From Parcubacteria group bacterium RIFCSPHIGHO2_01_FULL_47_10b (GTDB lineage: Bacteria > Patescibacteriota > Minisyncoccia > 2-01-FULL-47-10): a stretch of 11,070 bases of DNA. Below the pieces are notes generated by a model. That model was not told the origin of the DNA. It saw nothing but the letters and a program-made list of their open reading frames with translations, and made no database searches. This document shows positions 1 to 9,077 of this stretch, in pieces. Made by a program: the position numbers and the translations under genes. Position 1 is the first letter of the stretch; each line of letters begins with the position of its first letter. The stretch is from assembly GCA_001824325.1 (NCBI GenBank), contig MHXC01000011.1, positions 6,714 through 17,783 of the forward strand, written 5' to 3'.

Positions 1-2955
1 TTTTAATGACACAAAGCCCAGCTTTTCCACGGCATATTTTTTGATTTCGTCGAGCGGTGCGCTTGTGGCTATAAGCCGTCGGACTTCTTCGTCGACGAAC
101 AAAATTTCATAGATGGCGATGCGGCCTTTGTAGCCCTGCTCGTTACATATCTCGCAGCCGGGACCTGGTTTGTAAATCGCGATGGGCTGCCCGCGAAGTT
201 CTTGGGCGACATAACTGTTGGGCGATCGCTCAATTTCTTCGTTGATTTTCTGTTTGAGCTCATCGGTGACAGAGTCGTCGAGCTGTTTGCATTCCGGACA
301 GAGTCGGCGGACAAGGCGTTGCGCCATAATCACGTTCAAAGAAGCAGAAATGTCTTGATCAGAAATGCCTAAGTTGTCCATGCGCTTGATGGTACCCAGC
401 GCGTCATTGGTATGGACCGTCGAGAAAATTAAGTGACCGGTGAGCGCGGCCTGAATCGCTGTTTGCGCCGTGTCGTAGTCTCGGATTTCTCCTACCATCA
501 TGATGTCGGGGTCTTGGCGCAAGAGCGATCGAAGCGCGGTTGAGAATGTGTAGCCGGAGTCGGGATTGACTTGGGTTTGCATGATGCCGGCGAGCTTGTA
601 CTCGATCGGATTCTCGATCGTGATGATTTTCTCGGAGCCGGTGTTGAGCATGTTCAGAAGCGCGTACAGCGTGGTGGTTTTACCGGCGCCCGTGGGTCCG
701 GTGTTGAGGAGCATGCCGTTTGGTTTTCGAAGTTCTTTCATTAATTGCGCGAGTATTTTGGGATGCATGCCCAGCGTTTCGAGCTTGAGAGATTCGATAT
801 TTGGGTTGAGCAAACGAAGCACTGCGGTTTCGCCGTAGCCGCCGGGGATAACAGAGGTGCGGATGTCAAAGGTAGCGTCGCCAAGTTCTACGGCAAAGCG
901 GCCTTCTTGGATTTCGGAATAGGTGCCGACTTTGAGACCGGACAACTCCTTCACCTCTGCGATCAATGGCAAATAGAGTTTTTTCGGTACCTCCGCGATC
1001 GGTTGCAAGACGCCGTCAACGCGAAATCGAACTTCAAAATTATCTTTGCCTGGCTCGAAGTGGATATCGCTGGCATCCATGAGCTTCGCCGCAGCCATTG
1101 ACCAATGGAGCAACTCGTCGAGGTCTGCCTCGGCAAGCCGCTGCTCGATAAATGATTTTCGGAGGTTGTCTTTGGTGAGCGCGGCAATAATGTCTTTCGG
1201 AATGCGGAGCGTGCTGGACAAAAGCGCCAACACTGCCTTACCATAGAGCTCTTCGATGTAGCGGGCATCGCCGGCTACGCGCTGGATTTCTTCGAGGGAC
1301 GTTGTGCCGTCGAGCACTTTCAATAGGCCGTGCTGCAACAGCGTTACCATCCCCTGCTCCATCGCCGTTTTGCGGATGTCGTACGAGGTGGCGTCTTCGA
1401 GAATGAGCCGCTCGATCATGTCGTCCATGGGGAACATTTCGAAAATACCCGTTTGGCCTTTGTAACCGGTGCCAAAGCAGTCTTCACACCCGACTGCTTT
1501 CCATGCTTTGGTGAAATTTTCCGGCGGCGTGACTTTGGCGCGCGGCGACACAAGCGCGAGCGCTTTTACCATTGCCTCTTTCATGTCGACTGACACGTCG
1601 TATTCTTGTTTGCATTTCGGGCAGAGTTCGCGCACGAGGCGTTGCGCAATAATGAGCGACAGTGAGGCGGGAATAAGCGAGCGCTGGACATTTAAGTTGC
1701 GGAGACGCGGCACAGCACCGGCGGCGTCGTTGGTATGTAATGTCGAAAGCACCAAGTGACCCGTTAAAGCGGCGTTGATTGCCATATTAGCCGAGTCAGT
1801 GCTGCGGATTTCGCCGACGAGAATAACGTCGGGGTCTTGGCGGACGATTGCGGAGAGTCCCTGTTCGAACGTGTACCCTTCGCGGTCGTTGACTTGGGTT
1901 TGGGTGATGCCGGGGATTTGATACTCGATCGGGTTTTCAATAGTAATAATGTTGATTTCCGGACTGTTGATTTCGTTGAGCGCGGAGTAGAGCGTGGTGG
2001 TTTTACCGGAACCGGTTGGGCCGGTGGTTAGTATGAGCCCGTTTGGTTTGTCGAGTGCGGCTTTAATACGGCGGAGTTGTTCCGGGTGCATGCCCATTTC
2101 TTTGAGGATAAGGTCTACGACGCTAACGCCGAGCAAACGCATGACAATGGTTTCACCGCCGTGGCCGCTGGGGAGAATGGAAACACGAACGTCGATGTTA
2201 CTTTTCGGCACATCTTTGACGTCTTCGATGCGTACCGTAAAGCGGCCGTCTTGATTGGTGTTGTGGAGGTTGAGCTTGAGGCCCGCGAGAATTTTTATAC
2301 GAGACACAACGTAGTGATACACTATCGGATCGAGTTGTGCGATGTCATGTAAAACGCCGTCCACGCGATAGCGCAATGTTGTATGTGTGTCATAGGCGTC
2401 AAGGTGGATATCGCTTGATTTTGCCTTGAATGATCCAATAAAGACCGCTGCCATGAGCTCTGACGTTGAGGTTGTGAGGCGTTCGATTTCAGAACCGACT
2501 TCTTGGATCGAGTGCGCTTTGCGACTGAATTTTTCCCATGCGTCGCGAGAAATGTGAAAAATGCCTTCAACTGCAAACTGTGGGGCTTTGTACAGAGTAT
2601 AAAATTCCCACGCTTTATTGAGCGAGCTCTCGGATACGACCATAACGTTGAAGATGTATCCCTGGGCGTGGAGCGAGTCAATGGTTTTTTTGGTTTCCAG
2701 GAGGCGAGGGTCAAACACGCCGACGTGGAGTTTTTTGCCGGTATTTTGAATAATGGCAAGTTTCGCCCGACGCGATTCTTGCTCGGGAATGAGAATCAAG
2801 CTATCAAGATCGATGGGAGATGTTCGCAGATTGACGTACGGCAAATGTAACGCAAGCGCTCGCTCCTGCGTTAGCCGTTCCTCTTGCGCGCGGGTGACTT
2901 GGCCAATATATTCACCACGCTCAAAATCCGTATCAAAGGAATATCTCCCTGGCAT
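1..2955 (-). CDS. pilB: Tandem double-headed GspE/PilB-family pilus assembly ATPase, incomplete at the left edge
   Basis: Cytoplasmic hexameric motor ATPase that powers type IV pilus or type II secretion pseudopilus extension. One uninterrupted frame from ATG 2955 gives 985 codons with no stop. Residues about 26-125 resemble the GspE/PilB N-terminal domain, without the usual first half of a c-di-GMP-binding MshEN. Module 1 (about 150-561) has Walker A GPTGSGKTT at 312-320, Asp box E340/E344, Walker B with E382, His box H400/H407, and zinc cysteines C445, C448, C490, C493. After a linker of about 40 residues, module 2 (about 605 onward) repeats the set: Walker A 753-761, E781/E785, E823, H841/H848, C886, C889, C934, C937. 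It lacks its own N-terminal domain. By alignment with module 1, roughly 30 residues should lie beyond the edge. The usual family length is about 550-600. It follows the DHH-like gene by 26 bases, so co-transcription is likely. No clear ribosome binding site precedes the ATG. Confidence 0.93.
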   Translation of the reverse strand, partial: MPGRYSFDTDFERGEYIGQVTRAQEERLTQERALALHLPYVNLRTSPIDLDSLILIPEQESRRAKLAIIQNTGKKLHVGVFDPRLLETKKTIDSLHAQGYIFNVMVVSESSLNKAWEFYTLYKAPQFAVEGIFHISRDAWEKFSRKAHSIQEVGSEIERLTTSTSELMAAVFIGSFKAKSSDIHLDAYDTHTTLRYRVDGVLHDIAQLDPIVYHYVVSRIKILAGLKLNLHNTNQDGRFTVRIEDVKDVPKSNIDVRVSILPSGHGGETIVMRLLGVSVVDLILKEMGMHPEQLRRIKAALDKPNGLILTTGPTGSGKTTTLYSALNEINSPEINIITIENPIEYQIPGITQTQVNDREGYTFEQGLSAIVRQDPDVILVGEIRSTDSANMAINAALTGHLVLSTLHTNDAAGAVPRLRNLNVQRSLIPASLSLIIAQRLVRELCPKCKQEYDVSVDMKEAMVKALALVSPRAKVTPPENFTKAWKAVGCEDCFGTGYKGQTGIFEMFPMDDMIERLILEDATSYDIRKTAMEQGMVTLLQHGLLKVLDGTTSLEEIQRVAGDARYIEELYGKAVLALLSSTLRIPKDIIAALTKDNLRKSFIEQRLAEADLDELLHWSMAAAKLMDASDIHFEPGKDNFEVRFRVDGVLQPIAEVPKKLYLPLIAEVKELSGLKVGTYSEIQEGRFAVELGDATFDIRTSVIPGGYGETAVLRLLNPNIESLKLETLGMHPKILAQLMKELRKPNGMLLNTGPTGAGKTTTLYALLNMLNTGSEKIITIENPIEYKLAGIMQTQVNPDSGYTFSTALRSLLRQDPDIMMVGEIRDYDTAQTAIQAALTGHLIFSTVHTNDALGTIKRMDNLGISDQDISASLNVIMAQRLVRRLCPECKQLDDSVTDELKQKINEEIERSPNSYVAQELRGQPIAIYKPGPGCEICNEQGYKGRIAIYEILFVDEEVRRLIATSAPLDEIKKYAVEKLGFVSLK

Positions 2956-2981: not shown

Positions 2982-4133
2982 CTAGAGCTCCTTGGCTAAT
3001 AGGTCGAATATGTGCTGTTGTGCGCCCTGAATATCTCGGAATTGTACGCGAAATACGAGTTTTTGGTTTTTAAGCACGCCTCCAAGCGGTTTTGCGAGCC
3101 GGCGCAGCTGCTCTTCTCCGTTGTATAAAATGCCTCGCACGCGACGCGTCGTTTCGGGCTGCCAGAGCAGTAATACGAGATTTCCATTTTTGATCGAGTT
3201 GGCGATTTCGTCGACAACTTGAGGCACGTCCTTTGACGAGCTTTCTGATGAGATAAAATCGTCCGGCGTGACGAATGTATGTACCAACCCAAGTTCGGGT
3301 TTTGTCTCGAGACGCCCAAGGGCTCGCCCCCAAAGCTTGAGGAGTGGGAGCGACTTGGTTCGGTAGAGGTGTTTGATAATTGTCTGCTGGTCTGCCTTAT
3401 GTTCCAGCAGCACTGATGCCGCATGGAACGAGTCGGGAGTCGTGCGGGCGCTTTCGAAATTGCGCGTCGAGGTGATAATGCCAGCGAGAAGCGCAGTGGC
3501 TGCTTGGGGTGTGAGCGTCTGTGGCGCTGATTCGGTTATAAGCGAAAGGACGATTTCAGCAAGCGATGCGCTTGTAATTTTGTGCAGATGAACCTGGCCG
3601 AATTGGGTATTATTCGGATTGTTGTCTATGGAAATGAGCGGCGTGTCGTATAATAGGCGTTTGTTTTGTGCCTGAATATCAGATAATTGTTCGATGTTGT
3701 TTGCCCCGACAGTGATGACGAGATCGATGGTACCCGGGATAAGCTCGGTTGAAACGGCGTTGGCGACAATCTCGTCGCTTCGGGGTGCGTCTGTTGGTGG
3801 GTCGACTTCGAGTGAAAATGTGAGCAGGTTGTTTTTGTCGTCTATGTCATACGTGACTGATTGCACCGGGGCTCTCTTTGTGTCTAGGGTTATTTTGAGC
3901 TGGGCAGTTGTACGGAGCGTTGTTTGTATATTCTGGAAAGAGGGTAAAAATTGGAGCGCTTCTGGGGATGCGCCGGTAGCCACTAGTTGGGGTTTTTTCC
4001 CAAGCTCATTCAGCACATCGTAGAGCCCGAGAGCTGCGGCAAGCGCATCATTGCTCGGATTTTTCGGAGTAGCAACGAGGATATTCGTTGCTTGTGAGAT
4101 GAGTTTATTTGCTTGTATGAGGGAGTCTTTCAT
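2982..4133 (-). CDS. Degenerate DHH/DHHA1-family protein (probable pseudo-phosphoesterase)
   Basis: 383 residues, soluble, no signal peptide. The layout matches NrnA/RecJ-like DHH phosphoesterases that cleave nanoRNA, pAp or cyclic dinucleotides, but the metal ligands are mostly gone. The first motif, normally HxNPDxD, reads PKNPSND at 23-29 (His to Pro, first Asp to Ser, last Asp kept). The signature DHH reads DNN at 170-172, in an otherwise canonical IDxxPxNTxFG context. The usual TDTG reads TSTR at 221-224. The DHHA1 GGGHxxAAG motif is replaced by GGVLKNQKL at 351-359. The helix-rich segment at 231-276 still matches the family well. I infer a non-catalytic fold kept for binding or a structural role. 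The open frame and tidy spacing argue against a pseudogene. It lies 26 bases upstream of the double PilB gene in the same direction, suggesting an operon. The role is unknown. Fold assignment is fairly confident; loss of activity is inferred. Confidence 0.8.
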   Translation of the reverse strand: MKDSLIQANKLISQATNILVATPKNPSNDALAAALGLYDVLNELGKKPQLVATGASPEALQFLPSFQNIQTTLRTTAQLKITLDTKRAPVQSVTYDIDDKNNLLTFSLEVDPPTDAPRSDEIVANAVSTELIPGTIDLVITVGANNIEQLSDIQAQNKRLLYDTPLISIDNNPNNTQFGQVHLHKITSASLAEIVLSLITESAPQTLTPQAATALLAGIITSTRNFESARTTPDSFHAASVLLEHKADQQTIIKHLYRTKSLPLLKLWGRALGRLETKPELGLVHTFVTPDDFISSESSSKDVPQVVDEIANSIKNGNLVLLLWQPETTRRVRGILYNGEEQLRRLAKPLGGVLKNQKLVFRVQFRDIQGAQQHIFDLLAKEL

Positions 4134-4783: not shown

Positions 4784-6487
4784 ATGCAAAAAACCGATAT
4801 TCACAGAATAAAAAAGCATTGGAAGCGGTGGGCTATGGTCGTTGCTGCAGTCCTTATTATCAGTATTATCGCTATTGCCAATAGGAGCGGTTCTCAAGAT
4901 AAAGCACTTGATCTCGTTACTGTTACGAAGCACGACATTGTCGAGCTGGTGAGTTTAACGGGGAGGGTTCGGTCAGTTCATGAAATGGACTTGGCATTTG
5001 AGCAAAGTGGCAAGGTGGAGCAATCATTCGTTAGTGTCGGCGATATGGTGAAGGCCGGCACTGTGCTGGTTACGCTGACAAGTAGTGATCTACAAGCGCA
5101 ACTCGCACAGGCACAGAGCTTATGGGCGGGCGAAAAGGCTAAATTACTCGAGCTTCAGTTAGGCGCTCGGCCGGAGGAGATAGCGGTTGACCAGACAAAT
5201 CTTTCAAATGCCGATATTGCACTGAGCGATGCTCGGGCGAATGTCGAAAGGGTGAGCGCAAAGGCCAGTGCAGACTTGGAAACCGCATTGAGCGGTGGCC
5301 TATCAGAAGGAACAAAGGCTGCTACGGTCGGCAAGAATGCGCTTCTTACTATTAGTCAAATCCAGGGCGATCACTTTACTTATAAAGACCAAGATAATAC
5401 CGCTGTTGCAGAAGCTAAGGGAAGGGCAGTGTTTGCCCTCTTTGGCGTAGAAAACGCTGATTGGTGGCAGCCAGAAAGCATCGGTATGTTAAGCGGCGGA
5501 TTGTATAGAACTCTCGCTGCTCCGAACATGGCTTTTTCTCAAGATGGAACAATGGGATTGCTTGTGCAAACAAAAAGTGCACTCGAGCTTACTGCAATTG
5601 CTTTGGACGCCGTCAATATAAAAGATGTGTTGTCAACGACAGAAAAAAGCGACCTTGCGAGCGAAAAGGTGTCCGTGAGTACGGCTCTGGCGAATGTATC
5701 GAATAAGTTACAGGCAATTGCGGGGCAAAAAGCAGCGAACGATAGTTTTATACAGAATGCTGCAGAGAAACTGAATCAGTCGCAGAGCGCATATAATGCA
5801 GCAGAAAAGGAGTTGCTTTTGAAGCGAGCGCCGGCGACTACAGAGCAGCTTACTATACAGGGGGCACAGGTTCAAAATGCTGCTGGAAAAATTGCCGAGT
5901 TGAACGCGCGGCTGCAAAAGACCCGATTGTACTCCCCTATTGATGGCGTAGTGACACGGAATGATGCAAAGATTGGAGAAATTGTTTCTGCAAACGAAGT
6001 TGTGGTTTCGATCATTGCCAATCAAGATCTAGAGATTGTCGCCAATGTCCCCGAAGCGGATATTGCCAGAGTTGCAGTAGGAAATACGGCACATCTTACG
6101 CTTGATGCATTTGGGTTTGACGAGTCGTTTGAGGCAACAGTGGTACGGATACATCCGGCAGAAACCATCATCGAAGGCGTGCCTACATACGAAACTATAT
6201 TTCAACTGGCTACTACCGATGATAGGGTTAAATCAGGCATGACTGCCAATCTCGACATCAAGACTGCTGAAAAAAAGGATATTTTGGCTATCCCACAGCG
6301 CGCTATCGTAAGTAAAGACGGCCAAAAAGTTGTGCGCGTGTGGGGCGGAACAGGAACGAAAACTTCTGTTACAGCGGAAGTGCAAGTTACAACTGGGCTG
6401 AAGGGCCAGGATGGATATATCGAAATTGTGTCCGGTCTCAACGAAGGCGATCAGGTGGTTATAGACGAGGGGGGCCGAAGCATGTAG
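4784..6487 (+). CDS. HlyD/MacA-type membrane-fusion (periplasmic adaptor) protein
   Basis: 567 residues from ATG 4784. A TTG at 4775 would add three residues, but the ATG is preferred. A cationic N-terminus precedes one membrane anchor at about 17-33, with no lipobox cysteine. Then come a beta-barrel/lipoyl half at about 45-100, a long helical hairpin, the second lipoyl half at about 380-415 (motif YSPIDGVV at 383-390), a beta-barrel at about 415-495 and a membrane-proximal domain at about 498-567. Such adaptors connect a MacB-like transporter to an exit path across the envelope. The hairpin is interrupted at about 170-290 by a less regular segment holding a W/F-rich patch, so the protein is much longer than the roughly 370-400 residues of classical MacA. 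The ATPase gene begins 7 bases after the TAG stop, so the two are co-transcribed. Substrate unknown; peptides, lipids or antibiotics are typical of the family. Confidence 0.88.
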   Translation: MQKTDIHRIKKHWKRWAMVVAAVLIISIIAIANRSGSQDKALDLVTVTKHDIVELVSLTGRVRSVHEMDLAFEQSGKVEQSFVSVGDMVKAGTVLVTLTSSDLQAQLAQAQSLWAGEKAKLLELQLGARPEEIAVDQTNLSNADIALSDARANVERVSAKASADLETALSGGLSEGTKAATVGKNALLTISQIQGDHFTYKDQDNTAVAEAKGRAVFALFGVENADWWQPESIGMLSGGLYRTLAAPNMAFSQDGTMGLLVQTKSALELTAIALDAVNIKDVLSTTEKSDLASEKVSVSTALANVSNKLQAIAGQKAANDSFIQNAAEKLNQSQSAYNAAEKELLLKRAPATTEQLTIQGAQVQNAAGKIAELNARLQKTRLYSPIDGVVTRNDAKIGEIVSANEVVVSIIANQDLEIVANVPEADIARVAVGNTAHLTLDAFGFDESFEATVVRIHPAETIIEGVPTYETIFQLATTDDRVKSGMTANLDIKTAEKKDILAIPQRAIVSKDGQKVVRVWGGTGTKTSVTAEVQVTTGLKGQDGYIEIVSGLNEGDQVVIDEGGRSM

Positions 6488-6494
6488 AGCTATT

Positions 6495-7178
6495 ATGGCC
6501 TTAATTGAAGTTGCAACTCTGGAAAAAACGTTCGAATTCGATGGCGTGGCCACACGAGTTTTGAAGGGGATTACCTTTGGTATCGAAAAAGGGGAATTTG
6601 TTGCGATTATGGGTCCGTCGGGATCGGGAAAATCAACGCTGCTACATATATTAGGACTTCTCGATGACATTACCCGCGGAACGTATTTTTTTGACGGCCA
6701 GTCAGTCGAGCAGATGGACGAGCTAGCACAAGCTGCGTTCCGAAACCAGAGAATGGGGTTTGTATTTCAGGCGTTCAATTTGCTTTCGCGTATTAGCGTA
6801 ATGGATAACGTGAAACTTCCACTGGCATATTCAAAGGTCCCTGAAAAAACATGGAATAACGTGGCGTTTCAGTCATTGCAGGCAGTGGGACTCGAACACC
6901 GCATTGATTATCAGCCGACGCGGCTGTCTGGCGGAGAGCGTCAGCGGGCTGCGATTGCTCGGGCTTTGGTAAATAATCCGGAAGTGATTTTTGCCGATGA
7001 GCCAACGGGCAACCTGGATTCGAAATCGGGAGAGCACGTGATGGGAATTTTAGATGGATTAAATAAAAAGCTGAAGCACACGATCATTTTAGTTACGCAC
7101 GATGTGAACATTGCGAAATATGCACACCGCGTGATCAAAATTAAAGACGGCCAGATCGAAAGCGACAAGCACCATTAA
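6495..7178 (+). CDS. ABC transporter ATP-binding protein, MacB/LolD type
   Basis: 227 residues, normal for the stand-alone LolD/MacB-type ATPase. It hydrolyses ATP on the cytoplasmic face to drive the mechanotransmission cycle of the following FtsX-like permease. All motifs are intact: Walker A GPSGSGKST at 40-48, Q-loop Q92 (FQAFNLL), signature LSGGERQR at 144-151, Walker B VIFADEP at 164-170 with catalytic E169, D-loop near 173-175 and switch H202. The FQAFNLL and ADEPTGNLD motifs place it in the MacB/LolD/FtsE group rather than among import ATPases. It begins 7 bases after the adaptor gene and ends 3 bases before the permease. There is no Shine-Dalgarno sequence; translation may depend on coupling or an unstructured start. 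In classical MacB the ATPase and permease are one chain; here they are separate, as in many Gram-positives. Confidence 0.95.
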   Translation: MALIEVATLEKTFEFDGVATRVLKGITFGIEKGEFVAIMGPSGSGKSTLLHILGLLDDITRGTYFFDGQSVEQMDELAQAAFRNQRMGFVFQAFNLLSRISVMDNVKLPLAYSKVPEKTWNNVAFQSLQAVGLEHRIDYQPTRLSGGERQRAAIARALVNNPEVIFADEPTGNLDSKSGEHVMGILDGLNKKLKHTIILVTHDVNIAKYAHRVIKIKDGQIESDKHH

Positions 7179-8449: not shown

Positions 8450-8737
8450 ATGACGGTTGAGTCAATAAAGCAACAATTTAGTCCAATATTAAGGCAGCAT
8501 CATGTGGTGAGGGCGGGTATTTTCGGTTCTGTCGCAACGGGTATGGCCGGAGTAGAAAGCGACATCGACGTTTTGGTCGAATTTGAACCAGGGAGCAGTC
8601 TCTTCAACCTTATTTCGCTCAAGAATGATCTTACTGCAGCGTCTGGATCTGTGGTTGACGTCGTTACGTATGCATCTGTCCATCCAAAGCTTCGAGAAAG
8701 AATATTACAAGAAGAAAAAAGAATTTATGAGCGATAA
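8450..8737 (+). CDS. mntA: MntA-type minimal nucleotidyltransferase antitoxin
   Basis: 95 residues, typical of minimal nucleotidyltransferases. The active-site signature GSx10DxD is intact: G26-S27 then D38 and D40, with a third acidic residue D70 in the SVVDVVTY strand. In studied HEPN/MNT pairs this enzyme transfers AMP from ATP to a tyrosine of the HEPN toxin and so neutralises it. The frame overlaps the next gene by 11 bases (8727-8737), the usual arrangement for a co-translated toxin-antitoxin pair with the antitoxin first. An extended -10 lies just upstream, and there is no ribosome binding site. It could instead be an orphan nucleotidyltransferase acting on another target, but its partner carries the matching motif. 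Confidence 0.88.
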   Translation: MTVESIKQQFSPILRQHHVVRAGIFGSVATGMAGVESDIDVLVEFEPGSSLFNLISLKNDLTAASGSVVDVVTYASVHPKLRERILQEEKRIYER

Positions 8738-9077
8738 GAACCCAATAATTTTCCTCGAACATATCATCGAAAGCATCGAGTGTATCGATGAGTACCTGGG
8801 CGGTGTTTCTCTGGCTGAATTTAAAAGCGACAAAAAAACCCACGACGCTGTAATTCGGCAGCTTGAGATTATTGGAGAGGCGGTAAAAAATTTACCAGAG
8901 GAATTGCGAGTAAAATATACAGATTTGCCATGGAAAGAAATGGCTGGACTTCGAGATATTTTAATCCACCATTATTTTGGAGTAGATCTCGAGCTTACCT
9001 ACGAAGTTGTAATCAATGATCTAAAGCCAATCAAAGAAAAAATTGCTGTTATTCTAAACCAGTTGCGATCGCAATGA
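8727..9077 (+). CDS. hepT: HepT-type HEPN toxin (RNase)
   Basis: 116 residues from ATG 8727, chosen because it overlaps the mntA end and begins exactly where HEPN similarity begins. The same frame is open further upstream (from 8583) inside mntA, but that part is a shadow. The catalytic motif Rx4HxY of HepT toxins is present as R76, H81 and Y83 (RDILIHHY), following the usual WKEMAGLRD helix. Family members are dimeric all-helical RNases, or tRNA-acting toxins, held inactive by AMPylation of this tyrosine by the neighbouring MntA. The HIIESIECIDEYL helix at 12-24 is also family-like. It is the only gene here ending in TGA. Sequence directly after the stop stays open for 23 more codons in the same frame but shows no family similarity. 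Apparently intact. Confidence 0.9.
   Translation: MSDKNPIIFLEHIIESIECIDEYLGGVSLAEFKSDKKTHDAVIRQLEIIGEAVKNLPEELRVKYTDLPWKEMAGLRDILIHHYFGVDLELTYEVVINDLKPIKEKIAVILNQLRSQ

Follow-up and report, generated by a model that had tools for sequence, protein, structure and literature searches.

Can two assembly-ATPase modules work in one chain, and how would such a chain fit into a six-part ring motor? This question is raised by the first gene of an 11,070-nucleotide stretch of DNA (hereafter the window; contig MHXC01000011.1, positions 6,714 to 17,783 of the forward strand, assembly GCA_001824325.1) from Parcubacteria group bacterium RIFCSPHIGHO2_01_FULL_47_10b, in which an original prediction from the sequence alone had seen two PilB/GspE ATPase modules fused in one polypeptide. 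We find that the two-headed chain is a genuine, old member of the PilB/GspE assembly-ATPase family. Beyond the original prediction, the family is recurrent as well as old, its second module is without the N-terminal domain N1D, its gene lies outside pilus operons, and it seems to have no PilC of its own.

The gene is a minus-strand open reading frame (ORF) that starts with ATG at position 2955 and runs to position 1, 985 codons with zero stops. Its Walker A motifs begin at residues 312 and 753 (codons at 2022 and 699) and share one frame, as had been predicted. Pfam T2SSE (PF00437) matches the chain twice, with 381.3 and 363 bits, both above the cut-off of 24.9. Walker A, the Asp-box glutamate, the catalytic glutamate, the His box and two arginine fingers are found in both window modules and in nearly all of the 49 aligned chains described below; the Asp-box and Walker B glutamates, His-box histidine and four zinc cysteines that the original prediction assigned to each module are all there. 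The tetracysteine zinc motif separates the PilB/GspE clade from PilT (PMC5424180; here and below, citations refer to excerpts of the papers), and its presence in both modules speaks against an identification as a PilT/PilU retraction ATPase. Scores against NCBIfam are each a sum over the two modules, and this summing lifts several families above their cut-offs: 838 bits for GspE (cut-off 630.25), 836.4 for PilB (675.65) and 473.5 for ComGA (300), with PilT/PilU TIGR01420 at 330.2 (319.1), far under the 838 for GspE. The claim of two complete modules holds for N2D and CTD but not for N1D, which occurs once per chain, in module 1, as a weak MshEN match below the Pfam cut-off; module 2 of the window chain has none. 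The chain order is N1D, N2D-CTD, a linker of nearly fixed length and a second N2D-CTD. Nor is the chain complete within the window, as had been supposed: the 3' end of the gene lies outside, at an 88-N run (contig bases 6626-6713, window base 1 being contig base 6714), and judged from the length of relatives the last ~25 residues are unread.

A model built from nine doubles recovered the fused two-module frame, with no stop within the match, in 55 of 383 genomes of the window's class, spread over 16 families. These doubles score at least 1097 bits, and the next matches, at 778 bits, are single-headed proteins; of these doubles, G086, G246 and G166 match only in part, their matches lying at contig ends or close to them. 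Among 142 related genomes, 20, the window's own included, likewise have a single open frame that covers the two halves (L014-L033). A phylum sample of 379 genomes, comprising 32 from the class (again including the window's own) and 347 from other classes, yielded 8 doubles, of which four are from other classes (4/347; G693, G709, G598, G573). A cross-phylum scan of named genomes with generic PilB patterns gave, counting only among the matches listed (80 loci), at least one double, in Parcubacteria group bacterium GW2011_GWE2_39_37. This makes 60 doubles in total (55 class, four other-class and one named record), of which 49 were aligned and the remaining 11 left out. We read the window's class as probably Paceibacteria-like from a quick tree, many of whose forks are weak. 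There, single-headed relatives from the same class fall with named Kaiser-, Giovannoni-, Nealson-, Staskawicz- and Moranbacteria, and both the GWE2_39_37 chain and other-class single-headed relatives fall with Uhr- and Falkowbacteria.

Several candidates were rejected as doubles: pilB and pilT genes lying side by side in genuine pilus operons (G032, G081, G112, G123), several named loci of the cross-phylum scan that each hold two separate frames, and long single-headed frames (G574, G556, G499, G649, G454). That an assembly or prediction artefact joined two pilB genes can be dismissed with near certainty: the window gene does end in an N run, but this sits at the 3' end and not in the linker, the two-gene look-alikes were identified as pilB plus pilT, and, because the same fused frame recurs in 55 of 383 class genomes, the misjoin or lost stop in the linker that the original prediction had named as its refutation is very unlikely.

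The age of the fusion was addressed with a careful tree of 34 of the 49 aligned doubles, near-duplicates having been removed by hand. All 34 second modules, from both classes, form one clade (support 99/100), as they do in an earlier tree of 35 class doubles, and we therefore favour one ancient duplication: the simplest account of the sequences would be a single duplication before the classes split, followed by repeated loss of module 2. Trees of module 1 and module 2 from the same genomes have 16 of 31 splits in common (shuffled mean 0.19, maximum 3). On the module 1 side, other-class first modules group with other-class singles (100/96) and class first modules are interleaved with single-headed PilBs that occupy the same gene slot, described below. 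It is unlikely, though a serious alternative, that the fusion arose twice, once per class; an approximately unbiased (AU) test does not reject other-class first and second modules as one clade (p 0.088), which must be set against the single module 2 clade and against linkers of 50 (four chains) or 49 residues (one chain) in the five other-class doubles, as elsewhere. As examples of such loss, single-headed G324 is placed next to the double G039, whose module 2 is decaying, and in family f34 singles and doubles have like gene surroundings.

To compare the halves, we took the Geobacter PilB residues treated by McCallum et al. (PMC5424180) and mapped them onto both modules, using Geobacter PilB numbering with an offset that fits 10 of 10 residues. 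The Asp-box and Walker B glutamates and, as read from the motif table, the Walker A lysine are present in all 49 chains in both modules, and the His-box histidine in 49 first and 47 second modules. The equivalents of R271 and H413 are likewise invariant in both; R286 is arginine in 47 and lysine in 2 chains in each module; T327, T411 and R455 are each kept in 49 first and 48 second modules. In pore loop 1 the D398 equivalent is kept in 46 and 47 chains and the E400 equivalent in 42 and 47 (modules 1 and 2, respectively), and module 2 of the window has D at both. Based on these catalytic and inter-subunit residues, both halves look catalytic. The ratios of nonsynonymous to synonymous substitution (dN/dS) lend the same expectation of the original prediction further support, at 0.035-0.116 for module 1 (nine computable of ten close pairs) and 0.043-0.125 for module 2 (ten close pairs), rough values given that dS exceeds 1 in most pairs and is below 1 only for G132/G067, G598/G573 and, in module 1, G013/G146, saturated pairs yielding no ratio.

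The modules differ mostly in N2D, where module 2 departs from module 1 systematically. At positions 200, 238, 248, 254, 256 and 276, module 1 and the slot singles show little or no variation, unlike module 2; R257 is invariant in module 2 only, and CTD positions 379, 383, 384 and 387 shift between the modules. Module 2 also evolves faster (mean distance 0.499 versus 0.446), being the more divergent in 1105 of 1176 pairs. This divergence, the loss of module 2 zinc cysteines from six of 49 chains (all members of f14; the second cysteine pair of module 2 is unread in truncated G598) and of the His-box histidine from two, and the absence or loss of the whole module in several lineages are what one would expect if module 2 were mainly regulatory or structural, binding ATP but slow or idle, with module 1 doing the work. 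We consider this unlikely given that all 49 second modules retain the Walker A lysine and both glutamates as well as their arginine fingers (R in 49 at one position, R or K in 49 at the other), together with the low module 2 dN/dS.

The linker is 50 residues long in 42 of 49 chains and is the most variable part measured (mean sequence distance 0.73). It aligns to the connector between N1D and N2D of module 1 (hhalign probability 95.9, P 5e-9 in one comparison, 9 percent identity), which suggests a second copy made up of connector, N2D and CTD. We also considered a free module 2 made from an internal start. An ATG falls somewhere in the candidate stretch in 37 of 49 chains, and an internal start with a Shine-Dalgarno-like site of 5 or more bases in 8 of 49; the window chain has no ATG there, and no GTG or TTG with such a site.

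The surroundings of the gene bear on what the motor would do. In the class, its commonest order is polA, tsaE, a DHH gene, the PilB gene, ruvB, a PH-domain gene, yebC and ruvC, with much local variation. In other genomes the same polA-tsaE-DHH-PilB-ruvB neighbourhood holds a single-headed PilB; this slot lies outside pilus operons. Contexts covered 32 of the 55 class doubles, several on short contigs, and 19 class slot singles: a DHH relative is near 17 and 14 of them, respectively, ruvB near 19 and 17, tsaE near 20 and 14, polA near 16 and 14, and at least one of the four near 29 and 19. The doubles with none of the four are L075, L076 and L208. PilC lies near one of the 32 doubles (L230, ~5.5 kb away on the opposite strand) and none of the 19 singles, and PilM and PilD are in none of these 51 class contexts. 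Around the other-class doubles the neighbours differ, with a membrane-protein gene and a translin-family gene adjoining. In two other-class genomes the translin-family gene immediately follows the two-headed gene (L114 7995-8564, plus strand; L195 5916-6491, minus strand). The gene upstream of three other-class doubles was rejected as a DHH relative (hhalign probability 0.3 percent).

The window carries the DHH gene, tsaE and polA, and ruvB lies outside it on the same contig, ~2.4 kb beyond the two-headed gene, with small ORFs and an AbiEii-type gene in the interval. The DHH neighbour reads SIDNN where several relatives have NIDHH, and relatives vary (17 sequences). The 17.8-kb contig carries none of pilC, pilM, pilN and pilT, which an operonic PilB would have beside it; operonic PilBs are elsewhere in this genome, which has a true pilus operon on contig 42 and PilB-PilC pairs on contigs 1 and 60.

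PilC is present somewhere in all 36 double genomes searched, 21 of which also have PilB counts; both numbers were taken by hand from match lists. Ordinary single PilBs equal PilCs in number in 20 of these 21, the exception being G598 (3 to 2). With the slot gene left out of the count, the same holds for 12 of 14 single-slot genomes, all but G102 and G014; the slot gene of G159, G096 and G014 was taken as the best model match and not by surroundings. Throughout, a partial PilC at the end of a contig counts as a gene, which makes G118 fit and G014 not fit. Because ordinary PilBs already match PilCs one to one, there seems to be no PilC platform reserved for the slot motor, whether that has one head or two. 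G039 holds a block of PilC and PilM with no adjoining PilB (L232 3711-10150, minus strand), and an ordinary PilB is ~49 kb away. Contig 1 of G598 carries a 907-codon PilB frame (L239 2581-5301, minus strand) whose motor part is preceded by a long disordered stretch and by a putative HU/IHF-type DNA-binding domain, a label that comes from reading the sequence only. Slot singles are 552-583 amino acids long in 16 of 17 contexts; the other, in G243, has 737, its one motor module being followed by ~170 residues of charged tail that resembles a coiled coil (L101 1897-4110, minus strand), and was considered and dropped as an intermediate between single and double.

Could the slot motor be no pilus motor at all, and instead an orphan ATPase of PilT/VirB11 type that does something else, perhaps DNA processing? 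The frequent nearness of ruvB, often with yebC and ruvC, and of at least one of the four common neighbours would suit such a role, as would the surplus of slot motors over PilC and a weak match to PINA, a branch-migration ATPase family (30.7 bits against a cut-off of 800). The three class doubles that have none of these neighbours, together with the different neighbours in the other class, indicate that the ruvB link is inessential; the motifs are of PilB/GspE type, zinc cysteines included, and PilC is found in every double genome searched. We judge a role outside pili unlikely.

How could the two heads be arranged? In PilB-family rings each packing unit joins one chain's N2D to the CTD of the following chain (PMC5424180), and PilB organisation is two-fold (C2) (PMC5424180, PMC6858323). 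Modelling puts a PilC/PulF trimer with the ring, its two cytoplasmic domains each meeting one ring N2D (PMC10790770, PMC11656802), and N2D is the part that contacts PulF in the PulE6:PulF3 model (PMC10790770); published platform models disagree, dimer versus trimer. A six-module ring from three two-headed chains would be economical because both halves keep residues on both contact sides. Such a ring, which the original prediction also put forward, would be consistent with the observations; in it, type-1 and type-2 modules would alternate, three N1Ds would be carried instead of six, and the two kinds of N2D would fit a PilC trimer 3:3, one per cytoplasmic domain. The ring would act as an additional extension-type motor on the PilC platform of ordinary pilus operons. 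We put at about even the proposal that the chain is an extra extension-type motor, three chains making a six-module ring on a shared PilC. A fuller version is more tentative, and we rate it somewhat below even: an obligate hetero-oligomeric motor with fixed strict alternation and a 3:3 match to the PilC trimer, which would serve the platforms of other PilBs, predate the split of two Patescibacteria classes and have been lost many times.

Several points weigh against these proposals, besides the roughness of the dN/dS ratios. Strict C2 is impossible for an alternating ring, because opposite subunits would be one of each kind, a difficulty for the hard-wired alternation of the original prediction as well. 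Linker length is no proof of ring geometry, because other segments are equally constant in length (module 1 connector 46-47 residues in 44 of 49 chains, module 1 zinc loop 41 residues in 42 of 49). Pore loop 1 of window module 1 deviates, with S and D for Geobacter D398 and E400, and module 2 is decaying in G039. On the module 1 tree, which alone cannot tell gain from loss, module 2 was gained or lost at least 5-6 times and is dispensable in many lineages. The neighbourhood of the two-headed gene gives no pilus signal.

A different geometry would stack two rings from six chains, one of first and one of second modules, as in double-ring AAA+ ATPases. Each module keeps the residues for contacts between like modules and a flexible tether would permit the arrangement, but module 2 has no N1D, linker length hardly varies, and the rings of PilB, PilT, GspE and CpaF are single in the literature excerpts consulted; we regard stacking as improbable. 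If instead the alternating six-module ring is correct, it would have a three-fold rather than two-fold organisation, or unlike subunits would be paired across the ring.

Table 1. Features of the two-headed gene and its upstream neighbour in the window.
Feature	Position	Strand	Basis
Two-headed PilB/GspE-type ATPase, 985 codons in window	1..2955	-	ORF, Pfam; 3' end cut by N run just outside
Single N1D, weak MshEN/T2SSE_N match, residues 37-116	2608..2847	-	PF05157, 20.6 bits, under 23.1 cut-off
Module 1 (N2D + CTD), residues 167-559	1279..2457	-	PF00437
Module 1 Walker A GPTGSGKT	1999..2022	-	Motif alignment
Module 1 Walker B GEIR with catalytic Glu	1804..1815	-	Motif alignment
Inter-module linker, residues 562-611, 50 amino acids, resembles module 1 N1D-N2D connector	1123..1272	-	Alignment, profile comparison
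Module 2 (N2D + CTD, no N1D), residues 612-985 and on into gap	1..1122	-	Pfam, alignment
Module 2 Walker A GPTGAGKT	676..699	-	Motif alignment
Module 2 Walker B GEIR with catalytic Glu	481..492	-	Motif alignment
DHH-family (NrnA-like) gene directly upstream of two-headed gene, motifs degenerate in window copy	2982..4133	-	Pfam, relatives compared

Farther from the motor gene, the window holds a nucleotidyltransferase and HepT-like pair identified with Pfam (8450-9077, plus strand), whose layout is presumably that of an MntA/HepT toxin-antitoxin system. To the left of the window on the same contig (L009), two AbiEii-type nucleotidyltransferase genes (986-2307 and 4961-5840) flank ruvB; each adjoins a smaller ORF, of which the one of 196 amino acids has no Pfam match.

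A full-text search of open-licence literature returned no description of a two-headed PilB, although domain databases may list the architecture; two hits with similar wording turned out, from one passage of each, to deal with other subjects, and the excerpts of two papers on pili of the candidate phyla radiation (CPR; PMC12206443, PMC6744442) name PilB with no mention of such a form. How six subunits take turns, by two-fold pairs or three-fold alternation, is an open question in pilus motors, and so is whether unlike motor subunits share a ring; a 2024 review puts the latter question for PilB and TfpB, with two discrete hexamers and hetero-oligomers as the options (PMC11656802). The recurrent two-headed design is a natural test of turn-taking in six-part ring motors: with the halves linked, each could be switched off separately at a known ring position, which homohexamers do not allow.

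Among known systems, we take double-ring AAA+ ATPases to have likewise two ATPase modules per chain, but in a different family and ring geometry. Geobacter metallireducens PilB (PDB 5tsg/5tsh/6olj) shares the N1D-N2D-CTD order, Walker A, Asp box, Walker B, His box, arginine fingers and tetracysteine motif, whereas the window chain adds a second N2D-CTD and has one N1D per two motor modules. Single-headed slot PilBs of other Paceibacteria have a like neighbourhood and are the closest relatives of module 1, with one module instead of two. In TfpB, Acinetobacter baylyi has a second motor for extension whose gene does not follow the pilB-pilC order (PMC8213720). TfpB resembles the two-headed chain as an extra PilB-type motor without that order, but it is single-headed, and the TfpB model NF053534 is not reached even with both modules summed (716.5 versus 850 bits). 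PulF (GspF/PilC) has a tandem duplication, Cyto1 and Cyto2, and models place a PulF trimer beneath a ring of six modules (PMC10790770); this is like the motor arrangement proposed here, although PulF is a membrane protein and not an ATPase.

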